This document shows, piece by piece, positions 25,412 through 45,401 of a stretch of DNA of 54,117 nucleotides. Made by a program: the position numbers and the translations under genes. The DNA lies in the NCBI GenBank assembly GCA_029564595.1, contig JAKQPS010000156.1, positions 1-54,117 of the forward strand, given 5' to 3'. The stretch is from a bacterium. GTDB taxonomy: Bacteria; UBP15; UBA6099. Positions within the stretch are counted from its first letter, which is position 1; the number at the start of each line of letters is the position of its first letter. The notes under the pieces are model-generated. The model was not told the origin of the DNA and searched no databases. It saw only the letters and a list, made by a program, of their open reading frames with translations.

Positions 25412-25969
25412 TCATTCGCGCCTGCTGAAAGAACACCCGCAATAGTTTTGCCTTCGAAATCCGAATTCCCTGCTCAGTTCGCAGCTTTTTTTGTATCCGT
25501 CGTTCTTCTTGAAGTCGGCCCGCAAAAAAGCGATTCCAGTTTCTTCCGCCACGCTCTCTCCCTGCTCATTGATTACAGCGGCGTTTTTGTGGGGACTTAC
25601 CGAAAGCGTCGTGGCTATATGAGCGGCCCCGATTCCTGCCGCCGCCTTTGCCGCCGACTCAAGCCGTAGACTGAAACAAACCCTGCATCTGCCTCCGCCT
25701 TCAGGCTCGTTTTCCAGTCCTGATATTGATTCTCTCCATCTGTCGTTATCATACTCGGCTGTCAAAAGAGAGACGCCTGTCGCTTCTGAAAGTTTTTCCA
25801 TTTCGTCCAAGCGCATGCGCCATTCTTCCTGCGGCTCGATGTTGGGATTATAAAAATACAAAACTACATCCCATGAGTCCCGCAATATGTTAAGGACATA
25901 AGGCGAGCACGGCGCGCAACATGCGTGCAATAAAAGCTTGGGTTTTTTCGAATCCGTCGCGTCGCTCAT
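25412..25969 (-). CDS. queH: Epoxyqueuosine reductase QueH
   Basis: A 185-aa member of the QueH (DUF208) family. It performs the last step of queuosine synthesis in tRNA, reducing epoxyqueuosine. The cysteine motifs HACCAPCSPYV, GGGRCRVCF and RRQNYCGCSFS are all present, which fits the 4Fe-4S and extra metal site of the family. The length is normal. It sits alone between the SepCysS gene (34 bases upstream) and 162 bases of gene-free DNA (25250-25411) in which I see nothing notable. It may be co-transcribed with SepCysS. Confidence 0.93.
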   Translation of the reverse strand: MSDATDSKKPKLLLHACCAPCSPYVLNILRDSWDVVLYFYNPNIEPQEEWRMRLDEMEKLSEATGVSLLTAEYDNDRWRESISGLENEPEGGGRCRVCFSLRLESAAKAAAGIGAAHIATTLSVSPHKNAAVINEQGESVAEETGIAFLRADFKKNDGYKKSCELSREFGFRRQNYCGCSFSRRE

Positions 25970-26003: not shown

Positions 26004-27125
26004 TCACATCCGGGCGATTTCCTTGAACGCTTCTATCAGATAATCAACCTGTTCGTCCGTAAAACCGAAGGTAGACATTTTAAACCACCGGGTCTGTCCG
26101 GGCTTCAAGCCTGTGATTCCTCTGTCCGCCAGCGCGGAATGAAGGAAATAGCCGCGCTTGCGACTATTCTCAGCGATGCGGTGGAACAACGGCGTTTCAA
26201 ACCTGATAAGATCGTGGCGCTTCGGTTTCTCGCCCATCTGACGGATTTCGCCCAACGATTCCATAGCTTCCACGAACCTGACGGCTTTGGCCACTTCTGC
26301 GTCCCACCGTTTGACGCGCTCCTTGACTCCGGGCAGAGCCGCCATGAAAGACACTATATTCGCGCCTCTGGCGGTGCAGCCCAGCAGCTCAATATTTTTG
26401 TTCGGATGCGTCAAGGATGTTCTGAACAAGCGTTCGGCCCATTCGCCGTTTGCTCCCATGAAGCCGACCGGACCGCTCGCTGCGAAACTCTTATGCCCTG
26501 AGCCAACCATGAAATCAACGCCGAGCGCGCGTCCGTCCACCGGCATTCTACCCGCCGAATACGCGCAATTCAGAATCAACGGGACGCCCGCGTCCTTGCA
26601 GATTTTCGAGAATTCTGCCGCGTCGTTGAGGTTGCCGTAATCGCCGTCCACGTGCGTAAGCAGGGCCGCCGCCGCGGGCTTTCCTGTTTTCGATTTGCAA
26701 TATTCCAATGTCTCGGCAAACGAATCAGGAGTCACTCGGAAGTCGGGGTCGCCGGTGTTTGTGGATTTGAAAACTTCGAGGCCCGCGCGCTGCGCCGCCA
26801 CGTATGTAGAATAGTGCGCGTTCGCGTCCAACACCGCGCCTCGCCCCGGTTCGGACAGCGTGTGAAATATCGCGAATTTCCCTTCCCTTGCTCCCATCGT
26901 GACTGCGACGCGGTCCATTCCCACAAATTCGGCCAACTCGACCGCGAAACATTTTATGTCCGGCTTTTCGATATCGTGAAGAACGCCCGCGCAACGGTCG
27001 CACACGGAATAACCGTCTGAAAAACGGGCGGCGGCTTTTCTCGCCGCGGCGCTCGCCCTGCCCCCCGTCTGAAGCGGGTTCAGGTTAAGCGCAAGCTCGT
27101 CTATCGCCACTCTTTCGAAACTCAT
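26004..27125 (-). CDS. pscS: O-phosphoseryl-tRNA(Cys):Cys-tRNA synthase (SepCysS)
   Basis: A 373-aa PLP enzyme that converts phosphoseryl-tRNA(Cys) to cysteinyl-tRNA(Cys), the tRNA-dependent cysteine route best known from methanogens. Family signatures are dense: NLNPLQTGG, YSVCDRC, DGDYGNLNDA, YSAGRMPVDG, the PLP lysine K212 in GSGHKSFAASGP, and ELLGCTARGANI. The three cysteines that carry sulfur in characterised enzymes are present as C42, C45 and C250. The partner SepRS is not in the window. The ATG overlaps the stop of a 65-aa gene by four bases (ATGA), so the two are coupled. Use as a general persulfide-dependent cysteine synthase is a less likely alternative. Confidence 0.88.
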   Translation of the reverse strand: MSFERVAIDELALNLNPLQTGGRASAAARKAAARFSDGYSVCDRCAGVLHDIEKPDIKCFAVELAEFVGMDRVAVTMGAREGKFAIFHTLSEPGRGAVLDANAHYSTYVAAQRAGLEVFKSTNTGDPDFRVTPDSFAETLEYCKSKTGKPAAAALLTHVDGDYGNLNDAAEFSKICKDAGVPLILNCAYSAGRMPVDGRALGVDFMVGSGHKSFAASGPVGFMGANGEWAERLFRTSLTHPNKNIELLGCTARGANIVSFMAALPGVKERVKRWDAEVAKAVRFVEAMESLGEIRQMGEKPKRHDLIRFETPLFHRIAENSRKRGYFLHSALADRGITGLKPGQTRWFKMSTFGFTDEQVDYLIEAFKEIARM

Positions 27126-27319
27126 AGCGAAGCCTCGATTCTGTCTAGCGCTTTGCGCGCTTTCTCGATTTTCTTTGTCAGCGCCGCGCGGCTCTCTTCC
27201 GAGAGATTCTGCAACGGGGCCGCGTCCCTCCAGATATCCCTCACGTCTTCCATTAGATCGAGCACCCTGAATGTGTCCTCAACCCGCTGTTTGTTCCTTT
27301 GAGCAATCGTCTTATCCAT
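27122..27319 (-). CDS. Small helical protein coupled to SepCysS, function unknown
   Basis: A 65-aa, highly charged protein that should be almost entirely alpha-helical (IAQRNKQRVEDTFRVL, then LTKKIEKARKALDRIEASL), probably a short coiled coil. It has a good ribosome binding site (AAGGTGG), and its stop codon overlaps the SepCysS start by four bases, so it is likely a real gene. I do not recognise a family. It is much shorter than methanogen SepCysE, and I see no resemblance to it. A scaffold or tRNA-binding helper for SepCysS is speculation from position. The divergent gap to thrC (27320-27496) shows no clear promoter. Confidence 0.6.
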   Translation of the reverse strand: MDKTIAQRNKQRVEDTFRVLDLMEDVRDIWRDAAPLQNLSEESRAALTKKIEKARKALDRIEASL

Positions 27320-30173: not shown

Positions 30174-33100
30174 TTATTGTTCAATGCAGAGCAAGGTTTC
30201 AGCGGCACAGCCCCCGGTCCATGAACAACCGGAATCGACGGAACATGTCGCTTGTTCAGAATAGAAAGAACAAGCATAAGTGGGGTCTCCGGCGCAACCG
30301 GTCGCCCAAGAACAACCGTGAACTGCGCTGCAGGCGCTCTCATCCATGTAATTCACACAAGGAGCCGGCGTGCCATCGCAAGCGGAGCCGCCAGAGAAGC
30401 TGAACGCACACTCGATATTTGTCTCGCAAGCGCTTTGGCTTGACGCATACATGTAACAATCGGTTGAATCGGCCATCGTGCAATTCATATCCCCGCCGCA
30501 TGCAGGTGCATTGCTTCCGTAATATGAGCATCCTATCGAAGCGTCATCGCAAAGGCTAACGCCCGCATACCATCCGCATAAGCTGCTGTGGGTCTCGCAA
30601 TCAGTTTGAATCGTAAACACCGAGCATTGGAGCGCTTCCGTGAAGCTGTCGCAATCGGATCCCGTCCAGATACACGTCGCTTCAGCGTTGCAAATCGACG
30701 AGCTTGATCCAAACATGCCACATCCTGCCGTGCCGGTGTCCACGCATCCCGGCAAGTTATGGTTATATTCACAATCCGGGTCTGCGTTGCATGCGGACTC
30801 GCCATATCCGTAGTATCCGCATCCGAGCGCAATGTCGCCGCACAAATTAAGTCCAGAGTACCAGTTGCAGAGCGTTCCGTGGTAGCCACAGTCATTCTCA
30901 ATCGTGAACATCGAGCACTGGCTCGCGCTCACCAAGTCGGCGCATGTTGAGCCTGTCCACACGCATTCGGCGTTCACGTTGCATGTCTCGCCGGTTCCGT
31001 AAGTCTCGCAACCGGACGCCACGGATTCGATACAATGATCCGTGTCCCATTCGCAGTTGGGATCCCCCACGCACATCGACTCGTCCATCGGACCGTACTT
31101 GGAGCATCCGGCAGTGTCAAACGGCACACAATGATTATCCGAGTAATTCCACTCGCAGATTCCAGTCTGAGCGTTGCAGTTCGTGTTACTGTCGCCAAAT
31201 TCTCCGCAGCCCGCAGTGCCGTAATCCACACACATATCTGTGTTATGGTTATAATCGCAGTCAACATCCATATTACATTGTTCAACTGTGGCAAATTCGT
31301 AATATCCGCACCCGTAGGTGTTTCCGTCGCATGTCATCAAACCGGCGTACCATTTGCAATCAACGGAATGGTTCTCACAATAAACTTGGTCGATTAACTG
31401 ATTGCAACTTGAGACGCCGCCGAATGTGACGCATTCGCTATTAACATCATCCCAAATACACGCTGAATCCGTGTTGCAAGCTTCCAGAGTTGAGTGTTCA
31501 CCGCACGCTGGGCCGCCTATGTCTTCGACGCATTGATCCACGACCCACGCGCAATTCGCATCCATTCCGCAAGCTGTATCATTCGAGCCGTAAATCCCGC
31601 AGCCTTCCGACTTTCCGCCGCAGATTCCAAGCCCGACATACCAACTGCAATACTGCCCGTGAATCGAGCATTCCGTTTCGTCGATGAACATGGCGCAGTT
31701 GTTTTCGGCGTTTAGCGCGTAACAATTGCTTTCAATGTACACGCATTCCATGTCGGCGTTACAGGTCTCCATAGTCACATATCCGGAGCACTGCAGACCG
31801 GGTTCTTCCGCCATGCAAGTCTGAAGTCCCGAATCCCAGTAGCAATCGTGCGCCGCGCATGCCGTATCGTCGCTTTCGAACATGCCGCACATCATCGGGC
31901 TAAAGTCCAAGCAGCCTTCGCCATAAATACAATTCGGATTAGAGTTACATTCGTACTCAACAATGATTTCGTTGCAAACGACCATTCCGGCAGGTTCGCA
32001 ATAACTCATATCGCCCGTGTGCCAGTTGCATATTCCGCCGCCGCCATAAGCATCGCAATAAGACTGGCTCAGAGCATTGCAAGGCTCTCCTGATCCTTCG
32101 CCTGATTCGCAATAGTCATACCACCAATAACAATACGGCGACTCGTTGCAGGCGTACGGGTCGTTCTGATCCATGCATGGATTTGCTCCGCAGTGATCGC
32201 CGTACCAGAAGCAACCTTCCCAATCACATGTATAGCTGTCGTAGTACTGCGAGCAGACAGCGCCCTGATCTTGGTCGCACATATATCCATTCCAAGCGCA
32301 CATGGCATCTTCATCGCACGCGACTTGGTCAGACGGCCCGTATTTGAAGCAGCCTGCTTCTCCTTGATTGGCGCAGAATTCCTCGCCATAGTACCATTCG
32401 CAATCAGGATCGGAATTGCACGTTGCAGAATCGGTTGATGAATAATAATGACACTGGTGATATGCCTCAGCGCACACATTCGATGCAGAATACCAGTTGC
32501 AGTAATTGCTGTGAGTTTCGCATGAAGCGTCATCCGCGAATGTCGAGCAGTACGAATCATTAGTCATTTCCATACAACTGCCGGGATCGCCAGTGACCCA
32601 CACGCAACCGAAATCCATGTTGCAAGTCGTCGGTTCGCCGTACTGTCCGCACAATAAATTCCATTGAGTGTTGCATACGCCGTAATAAGTGTCCCACACA
32701 CAATATGGCTGATTGTCGCATTCAGCAGACTCATCCCAACCGTATCCTGCGCAACCCGCAGTTCCATAATCCACGCAGAGATTATCGTTAAAACTCCACT
32801 CGCATACGCCCGTTTGGTCTTCACAGATAGAAGAATCATCCGCGAAGGCTCCGCAACCGGCCATTCCTTCAGGAACGCAAGAATAATTGTTGAAATTCCA
32901 TTCGCATCCTAACGAAGAACTGTTGCAAGCGTCAGGCCCGCCGTATTCTTCGTAAGAGGCGCAGTCAACAGCTATCGGGCCGCAACTGCCTCCATAACCA
33001 CTGCCATACCATTCACAGAAGGTTGGATTCTGGTTGCAAGAATATTCAAATCCGTATGCTTCGCATTGACTGCCGTGCAACAGCGTCAGACACTTATCTG

Positions 33101-36100
33101 AGCCATAGCCGTCCCAGTAACAACCGGGCGCGACGTTGCATTCGGTGAGGTCGCTGTAATCCGAGCATGTTCCAGTGTCTTCATCGCACATGTAACCGTT
33201 CCAGTGGTAGCCCACACCGCATTGCGCTACACATAACTGATTGCCCGCGTCCCAGTAACAATCAAACTGGTTGCCGCAATTCCATTCATCTTCGTTGAAT
33301 GCCTCGCAACCCATTCCGCTCTCGAAACATTGGCCTAAGTTGTCAACCCACTCGCAACCGTTGTAATAGCAATCGTTGACGTTATAGGATTGACAACCCA
33401 AATCATCGGTGCAACTGTAGCCGTTCCAGTAGCAGTTTTCATTATTCTCGCACGGGGTTTCAGAGTAATAATCGTTGCAAATTCCGGTGTCCATGTAGCA
33501 GTTATATCCGTCCCAATAACAACCCATGCCGCCGGCGCATGCTGTTTCAGTGTAATTATCCATGCATCCATAACCGCCCATATCGACAATGCACTCATAA
33601 CCATTCCAATGACAATCCATTGTGTTGTCGCATTCATAACTGTCATATATGGACGCGCAGTCGGGAGCCACATAGTCTTCGCATAATGAACTGCCGTAGT
33701 TCCATGAGCAATCTACGTTCATGTTGCACATATTGTCGGAATCCCAGTAGGAGCATGGATACTCCGCTTCATCGACGCACATCGTCCAGAATGAAAGCCA
33801 TTTGCAACCGGGCGCGCCGTCGCATTGGAATCCGTCGCCGTATGCCGAGCAACCGGACGAGCCATATTCGACACATGAGCCTTCCTGATAGTTCCACTCG
33901 CAATCCGTGTCTGACTGACAAGGACCGGAGCCGTAGTTATTATAGTAAGAACATGCATAAGAGACATCGTCGCACCTGTTAAGTCCGGCGTACCAGTTGC
34001 ATCCGGCTTCCGCCTCGCAAGAGCTTCCCTCGTTGAACGCAGCGCAACCGGCATATCCTTCATCGTTGCATAGCGCTATATGGTAATTCCATTCGCACAG
34101 CGGGTCCGCGCTGCCGTTGCACGCCGAGTCGTCGTTGAACGCGCCGCACCCGGCTTCGCCTATGCCGACACAGTAATTGGCGACATAGTTCCATTCGCAG
34201 ACGCCCGTTTGCATCCCGCACATCTGAGAATCCGACCATCCCGCGCAACCCGCCGTCCCTTCTGTCACACACTCGCCAACCTGATAGTTCCACTGGCAGT
34301 CCGGGTCGTTGTTGCAGGAGTAGGCGCTTGCATTGTAGTATGAACAGCCCAATCCAACCGTGTCGCACCTGTCCACATACCATTCGCAATCGAAGTCGCT
34401 TCCGCAACTTGATTCATCGCCGTAGGCGTCGCATCCCACCGTGCCTTCTTCATAACACTTATACGCCCAGAAACTGTATTGGCAACTCGGATCGCTGTTG
34501 CAATCCGCGTCGCTGTCATAAGCTCCGCAGCCTGCCATCCCCAGTTCGACACAGATGTAGTTATTGAAATCATATTCGCAATTTGAATCCAAGTTGCATT
34601 CTTCGTCGTACTCATGAACGCCGCAACCGGCTGCTCCGTACTCGACGCAACTATTCAGCGCGAAACTCCATTCGCAGTTGCCTACATCGTTGTTGCAATT
34701 ATATGAGCCATTGTGAATTCCGCATCCCACCATTGACTCTTCCTGACATTGATTAACGTTATAGTTCCAAGCGCAGATGCTGTCTTCGTCGCACGTGTAA
34801 ATGTCCCCGAAAATTCCGCACCCAGCGGTTCCGATTTCCACGCAGGTCGAATTCGAGTAGTTGTATTCGCAAAGCTCATCGTAATTGCAGTATTCGTCTG
34901 ACGCGTACGACGCGCATCCGATATCCTCAACACATCCGGTTCCAATCCACTTGCAGCCTGAGGTTCCTCCGCATGTCGTCTGATCGTATTGATTCCAGCA
35001 TTCCGACCCTGCTCCCGTCACAACGCACTGGTCCACATCCCACATGCAGAGCATGTCTTTTCCGCACTGCATCTGGCTGGTGTAGTTCCAGCATTCACCG
35101 GGGATGATTTCCAAACAAGCCGTTTCGCCAGCGAACCAGAAGCAACCCGGAGCTGCGTCGCATTCGAGTTCGCCCGGATAATTGTAACATCCGGGGCCGG
35201 GATCGAACGCCTCGCAATATCCGTCGCCATAGGTGTTCCACTGACAGTAAGACGAGTGCAGTTCGCAAATCGACTGATCCCCGCTGAAGAATCCGCAGTT
35301 GCCTCCGTTATCAAGCATTTCGCAACCGCTCACTCCGTCGTAGTAGCAATTGACGTCATTGTTGCAATCAGTTGAGTTTTCATATAATGAGCAGACATCT
35401 CCAAAATCCTGAACGCATTCCGTGGTCATTCCATCCCACATGCAGCCGAACGTGTTGTCGCAATCCATCTGATTGAAAATGTTGAAGCATTCCGCCGGAG
35501 CGAGATCTTCGACGCATATCATCTCGACCTCGTCCCACAAACAACCCTGCTGCATGTTGCACATATTCATGTCCGTATATGTCTGGCAAACTTCTGACAT
35601 TTTAAATACGCACGTGGTCGCCATCATGTTCCATTCGCATCTGTCGTCAGCGACGCAATCCATGTCGTTGATGTGAATATCCGTGCAATCGCCTTCGAGC
35701 GAATAACAATTTCCGGCGTAAGAGTTCCATCCGCAACTCATATCTCCATAACAAGAAGAGGAAGTTGTATAAGCCGCGCAATCGTCGACCACTTCCACGC
35801 ACTCGCTGAAGCCATAATCCCAATTGCAACCGGGGGTTTGATTGCATATATCAGAGTTTACAAACTCTGAGCAAGAATCTCCGCCCATGTCCATCACGCA
35901 CTGGTCGCCATCCCACATGCAGCCCATGGTAGAGTTACATGAAGATTCATCGATCATCATCGGACATGTCGAGCCGGCGTCCTGCACACAGGACGTTCCA
36001 TTCCACACGCAACCCATCATGCCTAAGCATGAGGATTCGTCGGTGTTATTCCAACATTCTGGATTAACAATGTCTTCAATACAGTATGTTCCATCCCACA

Positions 36101-39100
36101 TGCAATCCATTGTCGCATTGCAAGTAGATTCATTAAATATGTTCCAGCACTCCGGGCCGCCCATGTCCATTACGCAGTATGTCCCGTCCCACATGCAGCC
36201 CATAGTGTTCGCGCAATCAACATCGTTGTAGATCATCGAGCAGTCAGGCCCCATGTCTTCAACACAGTATGTCCCGTCCCACATGCAGCCCTGCTGCATC
36301 TCGCACATGCCCATATCCGTGTATGTCGAACATACTTCTGACATTTTGAACACACATGTGTTCGACATCGAATTCCATTCGCACCTTTCATCGGCGACGC
36401 AATCCATGTCGTTGAGGTGAATATCCGTGCAGTCGCCTTCGAGCGAATAGCACGTTCCGGCATAGGCGTTCCATCCGCAACTCATATCTCCATTACAAGA
36501 CGGCATATCCGCATAAGCGGCGCATTCATCAATCACATCCTCGCAAACGCCGAAGTCATAGTCCCAGCTACAACCGGGGGTTTGGTCGCATATTCCAGAA
36601 TTTACGTATTGTGAACATGAACCGCCCATGTCCATCACGCACTGATCGATGTCCCACATACATCCCATCGTGTTCGAGCAGTCAACATCGTTAATTATTT
36701 CGCCGCAAGATATTTCGCCTTGAGCCTCGCCGCAGAAATCCATATTCCATTGACACGCGGGATCCATATTGCATTCTTCATATGTGTGGCCGCCGCAATA
36801 GACCTTTCCGCTGTTTTCCAAACAAACCATCTCGGCAGGATTCCAGTAGCAATCCTCCGTATTGGACATGCACGCGCTCATGTCATAGGAGCCGCAAATG
36901 CCGCCGTCGAAATTACATCTGGACTTCGAGACATCCCAGAAACAATTCGCGTCTGTTTCGCATATTCCGGCATCGCCGTAAATCTCGCAAGGATCAAAGA
37001 CTGAAACGCATTCCATCAATCCGAAATCCGGGTTTGTGCCCTGCGGGCAAACACAGAAGCCCGGCATCATCGGGTCTTCAACCGTTCCGCCCGTGCATTC
37101 TGCCGAACAACCGTCGACGAACGGATCCATAAACGGAGTGTCTCCGCCGCACACGCAATTGCCATCGCTATAAACCATTCCATCGGGGCAAATGCTCATG
37201 CATTCGCCTGCCGCCTGATCCGGATATGTCCCTTCAGGACATATACACATCCCCGGCATTTCCGGATCGTCGGCCGCCGCGCCGCCCGTGCAACTTGCGA
37301 CGCAGCCCTCTGTGAACGGATCCATGAACGGAGTGGAGCCGCCGCATACGCAATTGCCTCCGAGATATTCCATTCCGTCTGGACAAATGCTCATGCATTC
37401 GCCTGCCGCCTGATCCGGATATGTCCCTTCCGGGCACATACACATTCCGGGCATTTCAGGATCATCAGCCACTGTTCCGCCGGTGCAACTTATTTGACAA
37501 CCATATGTGAACGGATCCATGTAAGGAGCCGAGGGGCCGCATACGCAGCCGTTCGGCCCTTCAACCATTCCATCCGGGCACATCATTACGCATTGTTTCA
37601 AAGCAAAATCAGGACCGTAGCCCTGCGGGCAAACACACATCCCGGGCATCTCCGGCGTAGTCACCTGTCCGCCCGAACAATTCGCAGAACAAGCGGCGGT
37701 AAACTGGTCCATCAACGGAGCGTTCGGCCCGCAGACACATTCGCCTTCCGTTCCGACGACCATTCCGACCGGGCAACTGCTGACGCACTGTCCGGTGTTT
37801 ATGTCGAGCGCCGTGCCGGGACCGCATACGCATCTCATATTCGCGGGGTCTCCGATTTTCGGAGCCGGACATGTCGTGTGGCATGTTCCGTAGAACTGAT
37901 CGAGATACTGCCCTGTGGGGCATGTTACTGCTACAGTAGGACAATAGTTAGTGGCAGCGGTTCCGACTCTGCAGGGGCATTGATCCGAAGCGTTCGGAGC
38001 GCCGTCTAGATCGCAGTCGGGATTTGTCATGAGGTCGCATCCCACCGCGTCCGTCCCTTCGGGGCAAAGCCTCTGGAACGTGCCGGATTCAGTGACCACC
38101 ACGCCTGTTTCATTTACGCAGGGATTCGCGTCGTCCACGTTGAGAATGCCGTCCGCGTCGCAGTCTCTGCTCGCAATGGCGAAATCGCATCCGGCGCCAG
38201 CAGTTCCCGTCGGACAAATCGTGGCCGAAACATTGGCGACGCAGGTCTTTGTCGTCGGGTTTAAGGAAGTCCCTATCGGACAGACGCACTGGTTCATGAT
38301 GGGATCAATGACTTGTCCGCCGGAGCAGGTGGCAAAACACCCGTTGACCGACATGTCATAGTACAATCCGGGTTGGCACACGCACACGCGAGTCGCCGGG
38401 TCGCCCACCATTCCGGTCGGGCAACCGGGCAGACAGTATCCTTCCGTGCCGAGAAAACCGGTGGCGCAGTAACATCTGCCTATCGACGAGTCCGCGACCT
38501 GTCCGCCCGTGCACGAGCTTACGCATCCGCCGACCGCCGTGTCAAAATACTGGTCGTCGCCGCACTGCGCGAAGCTCGCGACCATACAGGACTGCATCGT
38601 CTCGCTCCACATCGTGCCGGAAGGACATATGCAGTTTCCTTCAGGGGTCTTTATCTGGCCGCCTACGCACACCGCCGCAGACGGGGTGACCGTCTGATAA
38701 GTTCTGGTTCCGGGGTTGTCCTCAGCCTTGCGCGGGTCGGTTCCTGCCTGAATTTCTTGCAGGTCAGTATAGTTATCTCCATCAGAGTCCTTTTTATATG
38801 GGTCGGTTCCGAGAGCCATTTCCTGAGCGTTCAACAGACCGTCGCCGTCGCAGTCTCCATCGGGCAAGGCCTGAGCGTTGCAGCTCACGGCGCAAAGCGC
38901 GCTGTCGCGCCTGACCGGAGCGGATTCCCATTTGTTCGCGTTGCAGTCAAGACCATTTCTAAGTCCGTCAAAATCGCAGTCCGCGTTCGGGTCGGTCGGA
39001 TCGCACACGCACTTGAGGTCTTCGTCGATAAGGCCGTCGCCGTCGTTGTCGATTCCGTCGGGCGATTCCTCGTCCACGCGTCCGTCGCGGTCGTCGTCGA

Positions 39101-41225
39101 TTCTATTGTCGCATTTCATGCCTATCTGAGCCGCTTGTTCTTCTGTGATGGCATCGCAATAAGCTTGGCTCAACCGGCTGTCGCATTTGGCTCCGATCGC
39201 GGGCGAGTCCTCGTCTATAAGCCCGTCGCCGTCATTGTCCAGACCGTCGACCGGATCCTCGTCGATTCTGCCGTCGCAGTCATTGTCTATTCCGTCTCCG
39301 GGAACCATCGCGGTTCTTGTGCAAACAATTCCGCGAAGCACAATAGCGTTTTCAGCAGGGGTGGATACGGATATGTCGCCGATTCTAGCTCTGACGATGA
39401 GAGGATTGGCGGGACCGCTGAAAATCGTCATTCTGGCCTGAGCGTAATAAGCGTTGGATTCGGTTGATGAACCGGTCTGTCCGCTCGCTCTCGCCGCGGA
39501 AGAGCCGTCTTCCCTCGCCGCAGTCGCTCCGGCGATCGGCATCAGCGTTCTGCTTCCGAGGAAGGTTCCGTTTCCGTCTGTGAACGTCACGGTAAGCGCG
39601 CCGGAGAACGGGGTGGAGGATTTTGCGGTCGCTACCGCTTGAACAGAAGTCTGACCGTTCACCCACACGCCGCTCGGAACCAGCAACACGTCAACATTCT
39701 GAATATTTACTCCCATCGCGGCGGCATTGTTTGTCGCGCCGGAATTGATAATCAATCTTGTCGTCTGTCCGAACTGGTCATTTGCCACGAACTCTATCGG
39801 TTTGGTGCAATCCTGTTGATAGAATCCATCAAGGGAGAATGAACCGTCGGCCCCGATGGTCGCTTTGGGATTTCCCTTGATAGAAGATCCATTAATATAA
39901 ACGTTGGTCCCGGGATTCGTCATACCTGAAATCGGGATCCACGGACACTGCATAAAACCTTCTGTCGGGTTCGATATCTCAAGTTTCGGAGGAGCCACCG
40001 CTTCTATCGCCACCTTGGCTTCCGCCTTGCATGTCCCATCCGAATTTGAACAAATAACTGAAACCGTTGTGTCTCCGGCCGATGCCAGTGTGAATTCCGA
40101 AGTGAACGCCCCGTTCGCGCCTGCCGTGACGGATGTGCCGCTCACAACGCATGTCGCTCCGGCAATCGTTGTTCCTGAAACAGCTACCGTTCCCTTGCTC
40201 AACGGATACGAGCCGCCATCCTCCGGTTTTGACAATTCAGCGAAACATTCGATCTCTTCTTCTTCGTCTTCCGATTCTTCATCATCCGATGTTGCCACGG
40301 CAACCGTGCCGGTGGCTGTTTCAGAACCGGATGCGGCCGGAGGAGCCACGCACACGGAGCCTTCTCCGCAATTCTTGCTGCAACATTCGTCTCCGGCTTT
40401 GCAGGCCGAACCGTTGGGAATGCAGGCGGCTGCCGTCTGGTCTGCCGCTTTCTCAGCGCAAACGCCATCCGCGCAGTTTCCGCTGCAACAGTCTTTGCCC
40501 GTTGTGCAAGCTGCTTCGATAACGCGGCAGCCTCCGCTCTGCATGGCGGATTCTTCGCCTTCGCACTGTCCGTCGACGCACTTATGAGACATGCAGTCTT
40601 CGTCTACTTCGCAAGCGTTCATCTCTTCGTTGGAGACCGGAACCGGGGGAGCCGGAGGCTGGTTCGGCTGAACAACCACCTGCGTGCCGGGAACCGCCAT
40701 GACCGACTGGCCCTGAGACATAACCTCAACCGAGCCTGTCCTTGTCGTGACGCTAGTGGTGTTCTCAGGCGTGTTCTCCATGTCGAACTCGGTTCCGCGA
40801 ACGCCTGCCACCGCGGTCGGAGTGCTAATCGAGAACTCCGAACTCGGGTTGTGCAGTTTCTCGGCCTTCGCCTTGACTTTGCCTGTCGTAAGGTCGAGGT
40901 TCGACGTGACCGTTTTTGTCCTCGGATCAATGTCGATATCCTTAATAGTAAAGTTTGTAAACGGGTTAATCTTCAATGTGTTTGAAGAACTCCACTTAAC
41001 CGTGGCGGATGACTTTGCGCCCGTTTTTATTTGCGTCCCGCTTGGCAGTGACATGTTGACCGTGCCAGCCTGCCACGAGCCTCCGGGCAACATAATCTGC
41101 ACGTCGCCTGTGACGCTCTGCAGCGATGCCGTTACAGGCAACGCTCTTAGATGCGCGGCATAAATCGCCACCGCAAAAATGAAAAGAATCATTACTGGGA
41201 CAAATCTAATCGCCCTTTTACACAT
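30174..41225 (-). CDS. Giant secreted protein: FecR domain, TSP3 calcium repeats and about 71 tandem four-cysteine repeats
   Basis: One uninterrupted frame of 3683 aa. Order: signal peptide (about residues 1-30); FecR domain (about 35-195, with AVAGVRGTEFDM); small Cys-rich EB-like modules (about 205-300, CMSHKCVDGQC); an acidic linker; Ig-like regions (about 335-640); thrombospondin-type-3 calcium repeats (about 640-845, DNDGDGLIDED); EGF/TIL-like modules (about 845-1410). From C1413 to the end come about 71 repeats (my manual count) of about 32 residues, consensus C-x(6-11)-C-x(4-7)-C-x-[WY]-x(3-9)-C, e.g. CNATMDCMWDGTYC. They hold close to 280 cysteines, are rich in Asp, Glu, Asn, Tyr, Trp and Met, and have almost no Lys or Arg. 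No transmembrane anchor or sorting signal is seen at the C-terminus. GGGGG precedes the ATG. Function is unknown; a surface adhesin, coat or metal-binding polymer is possible. The last repeats are degenerate. Confidence 0.92.
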   Translation of the reverse strand: MCKRAIRFVPVMILFIFAVAIYAAHLRALPVTASLQSVTGDVQIMLPGGSWQAGTVNMSLPSGTQIKTGAKSSATVKWSSSNTLKINPFTNFTIKDIDIDPRTKTVTSNLDLTTGKVKAKAEKLHNPSSEFSISTPTAVAGVRGTEFDMENTPENTTSVTTRTGSVEVMSQGQSVMAVPGTQVVVQPNQPPAPPVPVSNEEMNACEVDEDCMSHKCVDGQCEGEESAMQSGGCRVIEAACTTGKDCCSGNCADGVCAEKAADQTAAACIPNGSACKAGDECCSKNCGEGSVCVAPPAASGSETATGTVAVATSDDEESEDEEEEIECFAELSKPEDGGSYPLSKGTVAVSGTTIAGATCVVSGTSVTAGANGAFTSEFTLASAGDTTVSVICSNSDGTCKAEAKVAIEAVAPPKLEISNPTEGFMQCPWIPISGMTNPGTNVYINGSSIKGNPKATIGADGSFSLDGFYQQDCTKPIEFVANDQFGQTTRLIINSGATNNAAAMGVNIQNVDVLLVPSGVWVNGQTSVQAVATAKSSTPFSGALTVTFTDGNGTFLGSRTLMPIAGATAAREDGSSAARASGQTGSSTESNAYYAQARMTIFSGPANPLIVRARIGDISVSTPAENAIVLRGIVCTRTAMVPGDGIDNDCDGRIDEDPVDGLDNDGDGLIDEDSPAIGAKCDSRLSQAYCDAITEEQAAQIGMKCDNRIDDDRDGRVDEESPDGIDNDGDGLIDEDLKCVCDPTDPNADCDFDGLRNGLDCNANKWESAPVRRDSALCAVSCNAQALPDGDCDGDGLLNAQEMALGTDPYKKDSDGDNYTDLQEIQAGTDPRKAEDNPGTRTYQTVTPSAAVCVGGQIKTPEGNCICPSGTMWSETMQSCMVASFAQCGDDQYFDTAVGGCVSSCTGGQVADSSIGRCYCATGFLGTEGYCLPGCPTGMVGDPATRVCVCQPGLYYDMSVNGCFATCSGGQVIDPIMNQCVCPIGTSLNPTTKTCVANVSATICPTGTAGAGCDFAIASRDCDADGILNVDDANPCVNETGVVVTESGTFQRLCPEGTDAVGCDLMTNPDCDLDGAPNASDQCPCRVGTAATNYCPTVAVTCPTGQYLDQFYGTCHTTCPAPKIGDPANMRCVCGPGTALDINTGQCVSSCPVGMVVGTEGECVCGPNAPLMDQFTAACSANCSGGQVTTPEMPGMCVCPQGYGPDFALKQCVMMCPDGMVEGPNGCVCGPSAPYMDPFTYGCQISCTGGTVADDPEMPGMCMCPEGTYPDQAAGECMSICPDGMEYLGGNCVCGGSTPFMDPFTEGCVASCTGGAAADDPEMPGMCICPEGTYPDQAAGECMSICPDGMVYSDGNCVCGGDTPFMDPFVDGCSAECTGGTVEDPMMPGFCVCPQGTNPDFGLMECVSVFDPCEIYGDAGICETDANCFWDVSKSRCNFDGGICGSYDMSACMSNTEDCYWNPAEMVCLENSGKVYCGGHTYEECNMDPACQWNMDFCGEAQGEISCGEIINDVDCSNTMGCMWDIDQCVMDMGGSCSQYVNSGICDQTPGCSWDYDFGVCEDVIDECAAYADMPSCNGDMSCGWNAYAGTCYSLEGDCTDIHLNDMDCVADERCEWNSMSNTCVFKMSEVCSTYTDMGMCEMQQGCMWDGTYCVEDMGPDCSMIYNDVDCANTMGCMWDGTYCVMDMGGPECWNIFNESTCNATMDCMWDGTYCIEDIVNPECWNNTDESSCLGMMGCVWNGTSCVQDAGSTCPMMIDESSCNSTMGCMWDGDQCVMDMGGDSCSEFVNSDICNQTPGCNWDYGFSECVEVVDDCAAYTTSSSCYGDMSCGWNSYAGNCYSLEGDCTDIHINDMDCVADDRCEWNMMATTCVFKMSEVCQTYTDMNMCNMQQGCLWDEVEMICVEDLAPAECFNIFNQMDCDNTFGCMWDGMTTECVQDFGDVCSLYENSTDCNNDVNCYYDGVSGCEMLDNGGNCGFFSGDQSICELHSSYCQWNTYGDGYCEAFDPGPGCYNYPGELECDAAPGCFWFAGETACLEIIPGECWNYTSQMQCGKDMLCMWDVDQCVVTGAGSECWNQYDQTTCGGTSGCKWIGTGCVEDIGCASYASDEYCNYDELCEYNYSNSTCVEIGTAGCGIFGDIYTCDEDSICAWNYNVNQCQEESMVGCGIHNGSYNCNNDVGNCEWSFALNSCVEYGAAGCGVHEYDEECNLDSNCEYDFNNYICVELGMAGCGAYDSDADCNSDPSCQYSFWAYKCYEEGTVGCDAYGDESSCGSDFDCEWYVDRCDTVGLGCSYYNASAYSCNNDPDCQWNYQVGECVTEGTAGCAGWSDSQMCGMQTGVCEWNYVANYCVGIGEAGCGAFNDDSACNGSADPLCEWNYHIALCNDEGYAGCAAFNEGSSCEAEAGCNWYAGLNRCDDVSYACSYYNNYGSGPCQSDTDCEWNYQEGSCVEYGSSGCSAYGDGFQCDGAPGCKWLSFWTMCVDEAEYPCSYWDSDNMCNMNVDCSWNYGSSLCEDYVAPDCASIYDSYECDNTMDCHWNGYECIVDMGGYGCMDNYTETACAGGMGCYWDGYNCYMDTGICNDYYSETPCENNENCYWNGYSCTDDLGCQSYNVNDCYYNGCEWVDNLGQCFESGMGCEAFNEDEWNCGNQFDCYWDAGNQLCVAQCGVGYHWNGYMCDEDTGTCSDYSDLTECNVAPGCYWDGYGSDKCLTLLHGSQCEAYGFEYSCNQNPTFCEWYGSGYGGSCGPIAVDCASYEEYGGPDACNSSSLGCEWNFNNYSCVPEGMAGCGAFADDSSICEDQTGVCEWSFNDNLCVDYGTAGCAGYGWDESAECDNQPYCVWDTYYGVCNTQWNLLCGQYGEPTTCNMDFGCVWVTGDPGSCMEMTNDSYCSTFADDASCETHSNYCNWYSASNVCAEAYHQCHYYSSTDSATCNSDPDCEWYYGEEFCANQGEAGCFKYGPSDQVACDEDAMCAWNGYMCDQDQGAVCSQYYDSYTCDWEGCFWYGDHCGANPCMDQNDPYACNESPYCYWWYDYCESGEGSGEPCNALSQSYCDAYGGGGICNWHTGDMSYCEPAGMVVCNEIIVEYECNSNPNCIYGEGCLDFSPMMCGMFESDDTACAAHDCYWDSGLQTCMAEEPGLQCSGYVTMETCNADMECVYIESNCYALNAENNCAMFIDETECSIHGQYCSWYVGLGICGGKSEGCGIYGSNDTACGMDANCAWVVDQCVEDIGGPACGEHSTLEACNTDSACIWDDVNSECVTFGGVSSCNQLIDQVYCENHSVDCKWYAGLMTCDGNTYGCGYYEFATVEQCNMDVDCDYNHNTDMCVDYGTAGCGEFGDSNTNCNAQTGICEWNYSDNHCVPFDTAGCSKYGPMDESMCVGDPNCEWDTDHCIESVASGCETYGTGETCNVNAECVWTGSTCADLVSASQCSMFTIENDCGYHGTLCNWYSGLNLCGDIALGCGYYGYGESACNADPDCEYNHNLPGCVDTGTAGCGMFGSSSSICNAEATCIWTGSDCDSFTEALQCSVFTIQTDCETHSSLCGWYAGVSLCDDASIGCSYYGSNAPACGGDMNCTMADSTDCYMYASSQSACETNIECAFSFSGGSACDGTPAPCVNYMDESACSAVHGCSWATGCAGDPTYACSFYSEQATCSVDSGCSWTGGCAAETLLCIEQ
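35540..36660 (-). repeat. Eight-unit segmental duplication inside the giant gene
   Basis: Repeats 4-8 and 12-16 of the four-cysteine array are near copies at both protein and DNA level. Matching DNA, such as that beginning at 36394 and at 35650, is displaced by 744 bases, equal to eight repeat units (248 residues). Shared peptides include GDMSCGWN, CYSLEGDCTDIH and CVFKMSEVC. A second, shorter duplication of 195 bases (65 residues) lies in the EGF/TIL-like part, around 37216 and 37411. The array has thus grown by unequal exchange of blocks. Confidence 0.8.
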
Positions 41226-41447
41226 GGAACGACCCCCGCTGATAAAGTTTTTCGAAAAAATAAATATAACAGTGGTAATTAGTTGAGGTAATGCTATGTA
41301 ACATAAAACATTGTGCCATATTGTTGTTATACTAACAAAACAATTTTACCATAGTCACTTCATTTATGGAAGAGAATTTTTTCCTGATTACTCCATTCAG
41401 ATGGTATGACTTAACCCTTAAGAATTAAGTAAAAACACAAAAAACCT

Positions 41448-41476
41448 TTTATATTATTCAACATTTTTTATCGCAA
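41448..41476 (-). promoter_or_regulatory. Sigma70-like promoter of the giant gene
   Basis: On the minus strand, TTGCGA (41476-41471) and TATAAA (41453-41448) are separated by exactly 17 bases. They match the -35 and -10 consensus at 4 of 6 and 5 of 6 positions. Transcription would start near 41441, leaving a leader of about 215 bases before the ATG at 41225. The rest of the 321-base gap (41226-41546) is AT-rich and has no other feature that I can name. Confidence 0.65.
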
Positions 41477-41479
41477 GTA

Positions 41480-41495
41480 TGTGACTGCGCTCACC
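41480..41495. promoter_or_regulatory. CRP-type binding site, promoter-proximal
   Basis: TGTGA-N6-TCACC matches the CRP consensus TGTGA-N6-TCACA at 9 of 10 half-site positions. It lies 3 bases upstream of the -35 hexamer of the giant gene, centred near -46 relative to the predicted start. That position suggests activation by contact with RNA polymerase. Confidence 0.7.
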
Positions 41496-41501
41496 GTTGG
41501 C

Positions 41502-41519
41502 ATGTGATAGTTGTCACAT
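41502..41519. promoter_or_regulatory. CRP-type binding site, distal, perfect consensus
   Basis: A-TGTGA-TAGTTG-TCACA-T is a perfect CRP consensus palindrome, including the flanking A/T. Its centre is 23 bases from the proximal site, about two helical turns, so both dimers would lie on the same face of the DNA. It is centred near -69 from the predicted start of the giant gene and lies 28 bases beyond the stop codon of the adjacent CRP-family gene. Confidence 0.8.
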
Positions 41520-41546
41520 CCGCTCCGCATAGCTTGTGCAAACTGT

Positions 41547-42227
41547 CTAATAGACTCTGCTTTTCAGTCCGTCCGCGCTTTTTATGATAAAGGAATTTTT
41601 CTTTATATTTATATACCCCATAATCTCCAACGTTTTTAACGCTCGCGTAAGCGTCTCCCTAGTGGTTCCAACGAGACTCGCCAATTCTGTCCTTTTGTGT
41701 GTCACCTTAATCTCAATACCCTCCGCCGAACTAATCCCATCTTCTCTTGCCATGTCGAGAAGAATCCTAGCCAACCTTCCGCAAACATCCAGAAAAACCA
41801 AGCTCTCCATGCTCTCGTTGGCATTCCTCAAACGTCTTCCCAGCACTCTTAACACTTTAATTGCTATATCAGGATGGCTCGTGAATTGTCTAATGAAGTC
41901 TTCTCTTCCGAGCGTCACCACTTCCGTCGGCTCAATGGCTACGACAGACGCCGATCTCGGTTCGCCGTCTATCAAGGACAGTTCGCCGAAGAATTCCTGA
42001 GGTTGAAGAATTCCGACAATGAATTCCTTGCCCTCATCGTCTGCCAGCACGACTTTCACCCTTCCTGACACAATCGAAAAAAACGAATCGCCTTCATCCT
42101 GCTTATGAATGATGATTTCATCTTTATCGTATTTTTTATATGTGGAAGCTTTGCTGAGAGCTTCCAGTTCTTTGGCAGTCAGATCGGAGAAAAGAGGGAC
42201 CTTCTCAAAAATTTCCTTTGTGGTCAT
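41547..42227 (-). CDS. CRP-family cAMP-responsive transcription regulator
   Basis: A 226-aa regulator. The N-terminal cyclic-nucleotide domain has the phosphate-binding cassette G81-E82-L83 to R91-S92, the two residues that hold the cAMP phosphate in E. coli CRP. The C-terminal winged helix carries a recognition helix RETLTRALKTLE with R190, E191 and R195 in the places of CRP R180, E181 and R185, which read TGTGA. FNR-type N-terminal cysteines are absent. The start at 42227 follows GGAGG; the upstream extension is discarded. The nearest matching sites lie just past its own 3' end, before the giant gene. An adenylate cyclase gene is divergent to it. Confidence 0.9.
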   Translation of the reverse strand: MTTKEIFEKVPLFSDLTAKELEALSKASTYKKYDKDEIIIHKQDEGDSFFSIVSGRVKVVLADDEGKEFIVGILQPQEFFGELSLIDGEPRSASVVAIEPTEVVTLGREDFIRQFTSHPDIAIKVLRVLGRRLRNANESMESLVFLDVCGRLARILLDMAREDGISSAEGIEIKVTHKRTELASLVGTTRETLTRALKTLEIMGYINIKKNSFIIKSADGLKSRVY

Positions 42228-42572
42228 ATCAAGAAATCCTCCAGAGACCGCGCGGCATTCGCGCATAACAAATTGTAAATTTAATTATGGAATAAGTATT
42301 AAGTAAAATCGTATCACACATTATTTTTATTATACACAATTTCAAACAAATTGGAATAAGTGATTTTAGAAAGCTGCCGGCAGTCGCGACTTGCGTCAAT
42401 GAACGCCACTAAATTGAAATAAACAGAGCTATTAATGAAATATTACCGCTCTTCTGTTAAAATTATGTCCACTAATTCTGCGGTCAGCAGTAAACCGCGG
42501 CTGTAGGCGTTTATTCTTTGCCTTGCCGAGGAACCGGTGTCGCCGCAGATTTACTGAAGCGGAGAAAGCGCT
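42228..42572. promoter_or_regulatory. Divergent control region between crp-like and cyclase genes
   Basis: 345 AT-rich bases without a gene. On the minus strand a perfect TATAAT (42334-42329) could serve the crp-like gene, though no good -35 is spaced from it. A single TCACA half-site at 42314-42318 lies just downstream of it, where autoregulation could occur, but the other half is not conserved. GGAATAAGT occurs twice as a direct repeat (42289 and 42353). For the cyclase on the plus strand I see only a possible TTGAAA at 42414. Confidence 0.4.
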
Positions 42573-45401
42573 GTGGCGCGAAGCCTTCTGGATATCGACA
42601 ATCTAATAAACGAGTCTACGGAACTCGCCGCCTTGGGTCGGCACGATGACGCCGCTTTAGGTTTTCGGCAAGCTCTCTCAGGACTTGAGGACAGATTCCG
42701 CGGGGCCGCAAGCCAGTTGCCTGTGGATATAGTAGAGCGGCGCTTCAGACTTTTGTTGCGCCTAGCGCGAGCGCATATCGACGGAGACTCGCCTCTAAAA
42801 GCCATACCTTGCGCCACCGAAGCTATGGCCATCGCGCGCGGTCCGTTCTCCGACTATCCTGAATTTTTTCTAAGAGCGGCGTTCGAACTTGGATCAAGCT
42901 ATCTTGCTTCTGGAGACACAGCGGCGGCGAAGTCAATAATCACTGAAGCGGCAAAGATTTCAAGATCTACATCGGCCGACTCATCGGCCCTTCCACAAAT
43001 GTTATCGGCGTTGGCGGTAGGAAGACTTTTTGCGGCCGAGGAAAAAACCGCTCCCGCTATCGCGGCTTTCGAGCATGGAGTTAAATCGTCTCCTGAACCG
43101 ACGGACGTTGAGACAGCGTTAGTGAAATCCGACCTGTTGCTATCGCTCGGCGACGCCGTCTCCCGCCTGTCTATGGCTGAGAAAGCTTTTCAATCATACA
43201 TAGAGGCGGTTTCAACTCTTAGGAATTCGGGGATTGAAGCGATAAAGAACAACAAATCCCTTGACGCGGCTGTTCTGTTGGCGTCGGCCAGAAAGATTTT
43301 TCCGAAACTGCCCAACACTGCAGAATGTGTCGCCGCGCGGATTGATTCAGACATAGCCCTTGCATCCATATTGGATATGCGCGGCAGGTGGGAAGAGGCG
43401 GACAAGCTGTGCCGTGAAGCCGCAGAGCTGCTTCAACGCACCGGAGTGTCCCATCCCCGCGGAGCAGCCCTAGCGCGCATTGGAATGGGCGCTTTCCTGA
43501 CTCACATGAAAAAATATGAAGATGCCGCGGTTGAACTTTCTCGCGCTGTTGAAATCGCGGAAAAAAACAACGATGTTTTCGCCCTTTGCGTCGCGCAATA
43601 CAATCTCGGACTTGCCCTTTCAAAGCGTGGATCGGATGAAAAAGGAACAAAACTGTTCGAGGAAGCGTTGGACATGTTGTCCACTTCCCTGCCCGACGAC
43701 GCGGACGCAAAGAGATTGATGGCTTTAATCAGGAATCAGTTAGGTTTTATCAGCGCGCGCGCGCGGCGATTCGACGCCGCCGTCGAACATTTCCAACAGA
43801 GCATCGAGTTGCTTAGGAACAGACCGGCGGACACCGCCATCGGCGAGACGTATCGCTTGTTGGGCGAAATCTATTCCGAACGCGGCCAGAACATGCAGAG
43901 CGAGCGGGCCTTGAAGAAAGCTCTGAAAACTTTCGAGGACGCTGGAGCCGTTTACGAGACCGCCCGCACATTCAGAAGCATCGGAGTCAACTTCCTGTCT
44001 ACAGGCGAATTGGACAAAGCAATTTACTTTCTTGACGAGAGCATCAGCTTGCTCGAAAAGCTTGGAATCGAAGCAGAGCTTCCCATGGCGTACAGCACGA
44101 AAGCTAAAGCGTGCGTGATGATGGAAGAGTACGCGCAGGCGGAATCTCTTTTCACCAAGGACTTCAATATTGCCAAGAAATCGGAGAACAAGCATTCGCT
44201 GGCGTTTTCGTATTTTCATCTGGCAAGGATAAGACGGCTGTTGGGAAGGTCTCACACCGCCGAAGATTTCCTCAAACGCAGCTTGGACCTTTTCAATGAG
44301 GTGAACAACAGGGAGATGGCGGCGCTGACCATGCTTGAAATGGCGTTGTGCGCCTCCGCCCGAAGAGACACTAAAACAGCCACCGACCTCTGCGCCAAAG
44401 CGCAGTCTGTTTTCGAGGCGTCAAAGAATCAGGAGAATATCGCCTGCGAACTTCTTACGCGAGGCATAGTGCTGAGAGAAGCAAAACGCCGCCAGATGGC
44501 GCGGCGGTGCTATGAAGACTGCATCAGAATCCATGAAAAGCTTAATCCTGCGGCTCTCGAACTGGCGGAGGCGCATTTTGAGTTCGCCATGTTCTGGCGA
44601 GAGGAGAGCGACAAAAAATCGGCGACCCGCCATATCCTGAACGCTATAGAAATAACTGAAAAACTCGGTCTCACAAAAAAACTCAGCAAGTATCTGGCCG
44701 CCCTGAACGATATTAACCCGGAAGCGGGAGCGGGAATGAGGCTCTCCCGCATCATGGGCAAGTCCGGCGCGGAACAGATGATAAAAACGAAGGACGAGGA
44801 CAAACTTACCGTAGAACAGAAAAATCTCACGGTGTTCTTTACCGATATACGAGGTTTCACTACAATATCGGAGACCTTGTCGCTTGAGGAGTTGAACTCG
44901 TTTCTTAATGATTTCTACACCAGCGTCACCCAAGTGATTATCAGGTTCGGGGGGCTTATCAACAAGTTCATAGGCGATGAGGTCATGGCGCTGTTCAATA
45001 TCGACGGCGCTCTGGAGGATCACCCCGCGCGCGCGCTGAAAGCGGCCGTGGAGCTTGTCAGAACTATGGGCGAAGTCAACATGATTCGCGAGCGGCGCGG
45101 CGAGACTCCCATTCATCTGGGAATCGGAGTGAACTGCGGAGACGTTCTAATCGGCACTTTCGGTTCGTCTCTCAGGCAGGATTACACCGCCATCGGGGAC
45201 ACTGTGAACACTGCCGCGCGACTGCAAGCCAAGGCGGGACCCGGCGAAATTGTTGTGAGCCAGAAGGTTTACAACGCGGCTTCGGATGTCATCGCCGAAG
45301 CGGAGGACATGGGAGAAATACCTTTAAAAGGAAAAGACCGCGCCGCCAGATTATGGAAAATCAAGGCGCTTAAAGAAGAGGCGACACGGGAGGGGCAATA
45401 A
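42573..45401 (+). CDS. TPR-repeat protein with C-terminal class III adenylate cyclase domain
   Basis: A 942-aa soluble protein. Residues about 20-720 are helical tetratricopeptide-type repeats (for example AQYNLGLALSKRG and TYRLLGEIYSERGQ). Residues about 750-935 form a class III nucleotide cyclase. Metal-binding aspartates are D758 (FFTDIRGFT) and D802 (IGDEVMA). The adenine-specifying pair is K798 and D870, and N879 and R883 are the transition-state residues. The site is therefore complete and of ATP type, predicting cAMP output. The TPR part probably senses a protein partner. The start is GTG behind GGAGAAAG. The efp gene begins one base after the stop. The divergent neighbour is a CRP-family regulator. 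Confidence 0.92.
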   Translation: MARSLLDIDNLINESTELAALGRHDDAALGFRQALSGLEDRFRGAASQLPVDIVERRFRLLLRLARAHIDGDSPLKAIPCATEAMAIARGPFSDYPEFFLRAAFELGSSYLASGDTAAAKSIITEAAKISRSTSADSSALPQMLSALAVGRLFAAEEKTAPAIAAFEHGVKSSPEPTDVETALVKSDLLLSLGDAVSRLSMAEKAFQSYIEAVSTLRNSGIEAIKNNKSLDAAVLLASARKIFPKLPNTAECVAARIDSDIALASILDMRGRWEEADKLCREAAELLQRTGVSHPRGAALARIGMGAFLTHMKKYEDAAVELSRAVEIAEKNNDVFALCVAQYNLGLALSKRGSDEKGTKLFEEALDMLSTSLPDDADAKRLMALIRNQLGFISARARRFDAAVEHFQQSIELLRNRPADTAIGETYRLLGEIYSERGQNMQSERALKKALKTFEDAGAVYETARTFRSIGVNFLSTGELDKAIYFLDESISLLEKLGIEAELPMAYSTKAKACVMMEEYAQAESLFTKDFNIAKKSENKHSLAFSYFHLARIRRLLGRSHTAEDFLKRSLDLFNEVNNREMAALTMLEMALCASARRDTKTATDLCAKAQSVFEASKNQENIACELLTRGIVLREAKRRQMARRCYEDCIRIHEKLNPAALELAEAHFEFAMFWREESDKKSATRHILNAIEITEKLGLTKKLSKYLAALNDINPEAGAGMRLSRIMGKSGAEQMIKTKDEDKLTVEQKNLTVFFTDIRGFTTISETLSLEELNSFLNDFYTSVTQVIIRFGGLINKFIGDEVMALFNIDGALEDHPARALKAAVELVRTMGEVNMIRERRGETPIHLGIGVNCGDVLIGTFGSSLRQDYTAIGDTVNTAARLQAKAGPGEIVVSQKVYNAASDVIAEAEDMGEIPLKGKDRAARLWKIKALKEEATREGQ

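Follow-up and report, generated by a model that had tools for sequence, protein, structure and literature searches.

The regulator, the giant gene and the paired sites

The window, by which we mean the whole 54,117-nucleotide stretch analysed here, carries a CRP-type regulator gene followed, in the same direction, by a giant gene. The gap between them contains two palindromes of CRP type and two candidate promoters, P1 and P2, and a cyclase gene diverges on the other side of the regulator gene.

30174-41225, minus strand: giant gene, 3683 aa; FecR domain and Cys-rich repeats
41226-41546, 321 bp: gap between the giant gene and the regulator gene, both on the minus strand
41226-41446, minus strand: giant-gene leader, from the predicted P1 start to the ATG, 221 nt
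41343-41351, minus strand: extended -10 of P2, TGGTAAAAT; predicted start ~41336, ~110 bp downstream of P1
41453-41458, minus strand: -10 box of P1, AATAAT, with the centre of the proximal site 29.5 bp away; start predicted at ~41446
41476-41481, minus strand: -35 position of P1, CATACT; 2/6 to consensus, unusable, overlapping the operator edge
41480-41495, minus strand: putative proximal CRP-type operator, TGTGACTGCGCTCACC, read GGTGAGCGCAGTCACA on the minus strand; one mismatch (9/10)
41503-41518, minus strand: putative distal CRP-type operator, TGTGATAGTTGTCACA, read TGTGACAACTATCACA on the minus strand; no mismatch to TGTGA-N6-TCACA
41547-42266, minus strand: CRP-type regulator gene (protein P0001), 239 aa; cNMP_binding and HTH_Crp_2 domains
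42573-45401, plus strand: divergent neighbour, a TPR protein with a C-terminal class III adenylate/guanylate cyclase domain (44817-45344)

A sequence-only reading of this DNA had reported a perfect and a 9-of-10 palindrome, and we confirm both at their coordinates, with zero and one mismatches and with centres (41510.5 and 41487.5) 23 bp apart. The distal site lies 28 bp from the regulator stop codon and is the sole perfect TGTGA-N6-TCACA match in the window. Of 20,000 dinucleotide-shuffled versions of the gap, 0.05% contained a perfect site and none combined such a site with a second one of at most one mismatch, which bears out the earlier view that chance is an unlikely source. The placement of both sites on the same DNA face is only roughly right, since 23 bp amounts to ~2.2 turns, which, with a turn taken as 10.5 bp, rotates one site by ~70 degrees against the other.

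The regulator scores 88.9 bits against PF00027 (cut-off 27.5) and 55.5 bits against PF13545 (cut-off 27), and it is the only protein of the source genome (G000) with HTH_Crp_2 above the Pfam cut-off; its congener, bacterium ADurb.Bin236 (G003), likewise has a single one. Its best match in the NCBIfam library is NF008732, CRP proper, at 134.7 bits and thus below the equivalog cut-off of 266. The full-length solved structures that it matches best are Corynebacterium GlxR and M. tuberculosis CRP, followed by E. coli CRP, to which it is 34% identical. In the recognition helix, TTRETLTRAL, residues R203, E204 and R208 align with R180, E181 and R185 of E. coli CRP (mature numbering), the residues that read TGTGA, and this R-E-x3-R pattern is invariant across three orthologues. 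The adjacent regulator, which had been named as the binder, therefore stands as the likely one, with its Crp domains and DNA-reading residues kept. In sum, the reading as CRP-type operators, with the adjacent regulator as their likely binder and with a promoter for the giant gene downstream, is supported.

The ligand is a softer assignment. The pocket of P0001 retains E95, R104, S105 and R145 (E. coli E72, R82, S83 and R123), and in the alignment Ala149 and Asn150 occupy the positions of Thr127 and Ser128; cAMP is a plausible effector, and the cAMP dependence predicted earlier may not be strict, since the pocket lacks the residue matching Thr127. The genome encodes 12 class III cyclase domains, and cAMP is for this reason probably made. 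The closest solved relative of the neighbouring cyclase domain is CyaB, and the adenylyl cyclase residues for metal binding, adenine selection and the transition state are presumably those in the domain's motifs TDIRGFT, NKFIGDEV and QDYTAIGDTVNTAARL. In G003, too, the regulator gene has a cyclase domain beside it, at the corresponding position. DeMMO6_30 (G006), a member of another family in the same order, gave no cyclase match on the contig carrying its regulator gene, where the upstream ORF resembles, by eye, a histidine kinase/receiver protein. We therefore discard cyclase linkage as a conserved trait; the neighbouring cyclase need not be the source of cAMP. A role of such sites at a divergent regulator/cyclase promoter was also discarded, as none with two or fewer mismatches lies between 41716 and 45663.

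The giant protein has a secreted-type N-terminus and contains 387 cysteines among its 3683 residues (10.5%). SepCysS, an enzyme of tRNA-dependent cysteine synthesis that is rare in bacteria, is encoded 3 kb from the giant gene (26004-27125, minus strand; TIGR02539, 504 bits, cut-off 365), with a Cys/Met-metabolism PLP enzyme in between, and there is possibly a link between tRNA-dependent cysteine synthesis and the heavy cysteine demand of the giant protein. Upstream, a 65-aa ORF (27122-27319, minus strand) overlaps the start of SepCysS and might be a piece of SepCysSn. An operon of SepCysSn and SepCysS, together with an unusual SepRS, has been described in ADurb.Bin236 (PMC5424206). The gene immediately after SepCysS, likewise on the minus strand, encodes QueH, an epoxyqueuosine reductase (25412-25969; PF02677, 216 bits), and the 875-aa product of 22622-25249 (minus strand), with an N-terminal LptC match and an LptA match below cut-off, is an apparent LptC-LptA fusion.

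Two candidate promoters in the gap

Relative to the predicted P1 start at 41446, the proximal site is centred at -41.5 and the distal site at -64.5. At E. coli class II promoters with a site centred at -41.5, the -10 box begins 29.5 bp away from the centre of that site. Boxes at exactly this distance from the proximal site are found in the window (AATAAT), in G003 (GATAAT) and in G006 (TAAAAT), and GATAAT occupies the P1 -10 in G001 as well. P1 thus has the class II spacing, with a start site that is itself a prediction. The probability of an acceptable -10 at the class II distance in both the window and G006 by chance is ~0.002. AT richness inflates -10 box matches in general; 29.5 bp is also the commonest distance from site to -10 among 42 oriented sites. 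The -35 position reads CATACT in G000, G003 and G006 alike, and the lack of a usable -35 hexamer fits an activator-dependent promoter. We therefore propose, from these sequence features, that P1 is regulator-dependent and starts near 41446. The leader that would result (41226-41446) matches no Rfam family.

The sites had been described as lying before the giant-gene promoter, which is upheld by a conserved -10 downstream of them, although not by the -10 and start originally chosen. The hexamers of that promoter, TTGCGA (41471-41476) and TATAAA (41448-41453) with a 17-bp spacer, do exist. They are not conserved, with TGTAAT in place of TATAAA in G003, and our consensus promoter scan did not call them; with TATAAA as the -10, the sites would fall at -46.5 and -69.5, out of class I or class II register. 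The start once placed at 41441 moves accordingly to near 41446, as predicted from the conserved AATAAT.

The second promoter, P2, is better conserved than P1, and nothing else in the gap is conserved as well as its extended -10: TGGTAAAAT is invariant among G000, G003 and G001 and reads TGTTATAAT in G006. Paralogues of the giant-gene N-terminus, 79-80% identical and with a related leader, occur at G000:C48:3476-4078 (L040) and at L034, L038 and L039. At these four, P2 is largely kept, as TGGTACAAT in two, TGGTAAAAT in one and TGTTACAAT in one; the TATGGTAMAAT form is found at three of the four, with a shift to CATGGTAAAAT in the G001 paralogue and TATGTTACAAT in that of G002. The C48 locus and its relatives were rejected as further carriers of the pair, having one weak site only, TGTGACGGATATCAAT or similar, at about -177. 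Since P2 is better conserved and recurs at paralogues without the pair, regulator-independent expression is likely, and P2 is a probable regulator-independent second promoter. The strong activation expected earlier has to be toned down, given this better-conserved promoter ~110 bp downstream and a distal site that may either add to or reduce the output.

Conservation and distribution of the sites

Relative to P0001, the regulator is 96% identical in G003 and 61% identical in G006. The gap is 85% identical between the congeners G000 and G003, and in the latter the half-sites of both operators are kept, with differences confined to the spacer (TGTGACTATGCTCACC and TGTGATAATTGTCACA). In G006, CGTGACGCCAATCACG and TGTGACTTTAATCACA, 24 bp apart, come directly after the regulator gene, the former aligning with the distal site of the window and the latter, proximal one being perfect; the gene after this pair has an FecR-type N-terminus like that of the giant protein (51% over 119 aa). 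The succession of regulator gene, paired sites and FecR-domain gene is therefore common to G000, G003 and G006. Judged from these genomes, it predates the family split, because G006 belongs to another family and shares all three elements. Regulator and pair occur together in three genomes only, which amount to two independent lineages because two of the three are congeneric, and we regard the conservation evidence as good but not deep. The G004 and G005 assemblies contain similar pairs; a regulator orthologue was not found in them.

Genome-wide, pattern searches with the reversed pattern as control returned five perfect sites in G000 (control, 0) and 90 sites with at most one mismatch (control, 26). 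Among the matches listed, out of the total of 90, 26 of 48 are intergenic, as against a non-coding background of ~15% that varies between regions (tail 2e-10). Both the shortcomings of the reversed pattern as a control and the AT richness of intergenic DNA make the size of this enrichment approximate. All five perfect sites of G000 are perfect in G003, four as an identical 16-mer, and the window site differs from its counterpart in one spacer base. The other perfect sites precede, among others, a proton-pumping pyrophosphatase, a 3-hydroxyacyl-CoA dehydrogenase and a predicted secreted protein. Because perfect sites also precede such genes, P0001 looks like a global regulator, not one dedicated to the giant gene.

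Across the phylum's seven genomes, exact GTGA-N6-TCAC pairs 18-48 bp apart were found at eight places (control, 0), six of them with a spacing of 23-24 bp. Counting the window and G003 once, five independent loci have this spacing: the -10 lies at 29.5 bp in four, including G006 C19 and G005 C59, and at 30.5 bp in the fifth, G004 C61, which is thus 1 bp off. A rough binomial, computed after the pattern was seen, gives ~5e-4 for this register. Among 25 pairs in 234 genomes from other phyla, 13 have a spacing of 20-24 bp, which suggests that abutting CRP/FNR-type sites are a general architecture and not specific to this locus. We note that at G005:C166:510-586 (L068) a run of three CRP-type sites, at intervals of 32 and 31 bp, lies ~150 bp before the start of a plus-strand ORF that by eye resembles DXP reductoisomerase.

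Proposed mechanism and known systems

We consider it probable that the pair is the operator of the adjacent CRP-type regulator and drives the class II promoter P1 of the giant gene. Regulator dimers, with ligand bound, would occupy both sites. The dimer at -41.5 would substitute for the missing -35 contact and recruit RNA polymerase to AATAAT (41453-41458), with transcription from P1 beginning near 41446. The abutting dimer at -64.5 would cover a position otherwise available to the polymerase alpha C-terminal domain and might tune P1 output, through cooperative activation or as a brake, while P2 would supply transcription independent of the regulator. Binding, activation, the start sites, the ligand (most likely cAMP) and the role of the distal site are what we infer from the arrangement. 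It is very likely that the predicted sites and their activator role in a P1 switch are real, since the arrangement is kept in relatives of another family.

The M. tuberculosis whiB1 promoter, bound by CRPMt, is reported to carry tandem activating and inhibitory sites (PMC4117774). A similar division of labour here is possible, if not what we expect: the proximal dimer would activate P1 at low regulator level and the distal one would brake it, or the reverse, giving a response confined to a certain range of regulator levels in place of plain strong activation. Besides the whiB1 precedent, this reading draws on GlxR and CRPMt as the best full-length solved relatives of P0001 and on the -64.5 site, which coincides with the usual position of alpha-CTD. 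The distances from the start differ, however, the whiB1 sites lying reportedly at about -37.5 and -58.5, and the sequence gives no sign, positive or negative, to the distal site.

That the giant gene is expressed mainly via P2 or by read-through from the regulator gene, with the pair as a roadblock or minor input, strikes us as unlikely. It would agree with the extended -10 of P2, the best-conserved stretch of the gap and largely kept at paralogues that are 79% identical and lack the pair, and with the lack of any terminator-like site in our scan of the gap between the two genes; yet the class II -10 at P1 is kept in three genomes despite diverged surroundings, and the pair persists in G006.

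It is very improbable that the repeats act as RNA hairpins closing the regulator mRNA at its 3' end and are no protein sites. Both inverted repeats do lie within ~70 nt after the stop codon, and the G006 stretch folds better than its shuffles (z = -3.2), but the window does not (z = 0.21) and offers no U-tract, terminator-like site or Rfam family; moreover, the half-sites are conserved literally, without compensatory change, and the motif is enriched in intergenic DNA genome-wide. We give next to no credence to chance palindromes, which the 90 near-matches in the genome might suggest, in view of the empty shuffles, the conservation across families and the exact pairs at eight places in seven genomes against none in the control.

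Returning to the regulator-driven class II promoter, we offer a wider reading only tentatively and with considerable doubt: a self-contained nucleotide-signalling module, in which the sole CRP-type regulator of the genome is encoded between a TPR class III cyclase and a strong operator pair, the giant Cys-rich FecR-domain surface protein would be a main output, and the two adjoining dimers, centred at -41.5 and -64.5, would make up a defined two-dimer complex for activation. We know of no described promoter with this geometry. The locus opens the regulation of a giant cell-surface gene to experiment in an uncultivated phylum, represented here by seven genomes, and it shows that CRP operators, their class II geometry and the close abutment of paired sites reach into the lineage UBP15.

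The proposed mechanism is textbook class II activation to which a second, abutting dimer is added, and hence a well-known kind of switch. With E. coli class II CRP promoters it shares the -41.5 site, the absence of a -35, the TGTGA-N6-TCACA operator and the R-E-x3-R recognition helix; unlike them, it has an abutting -64.5 site, a downstream second promoter, Ala in place of Thr127 and just one neighbouring target gene whose place next to the regulator is conserved. Similarly to whiB1 and CRPMt (Rv3676) of M. tuberculosis, two close CRP sites serve one promoter in a genome with many class III cyclases, and P0001 is most like CRPMt and GlxR among full-length solved structures; unlike at whiB1, the proximal site stands at exactly the class II distance, the two sites are 23-24 bp apart and the target follows directly after the regulator gene. 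E. coli class III (tandem) promoters also engage more than one CRP dimer, but there the upstream sites are usually farther away, whereas at 23 bp the two dimers would touch.
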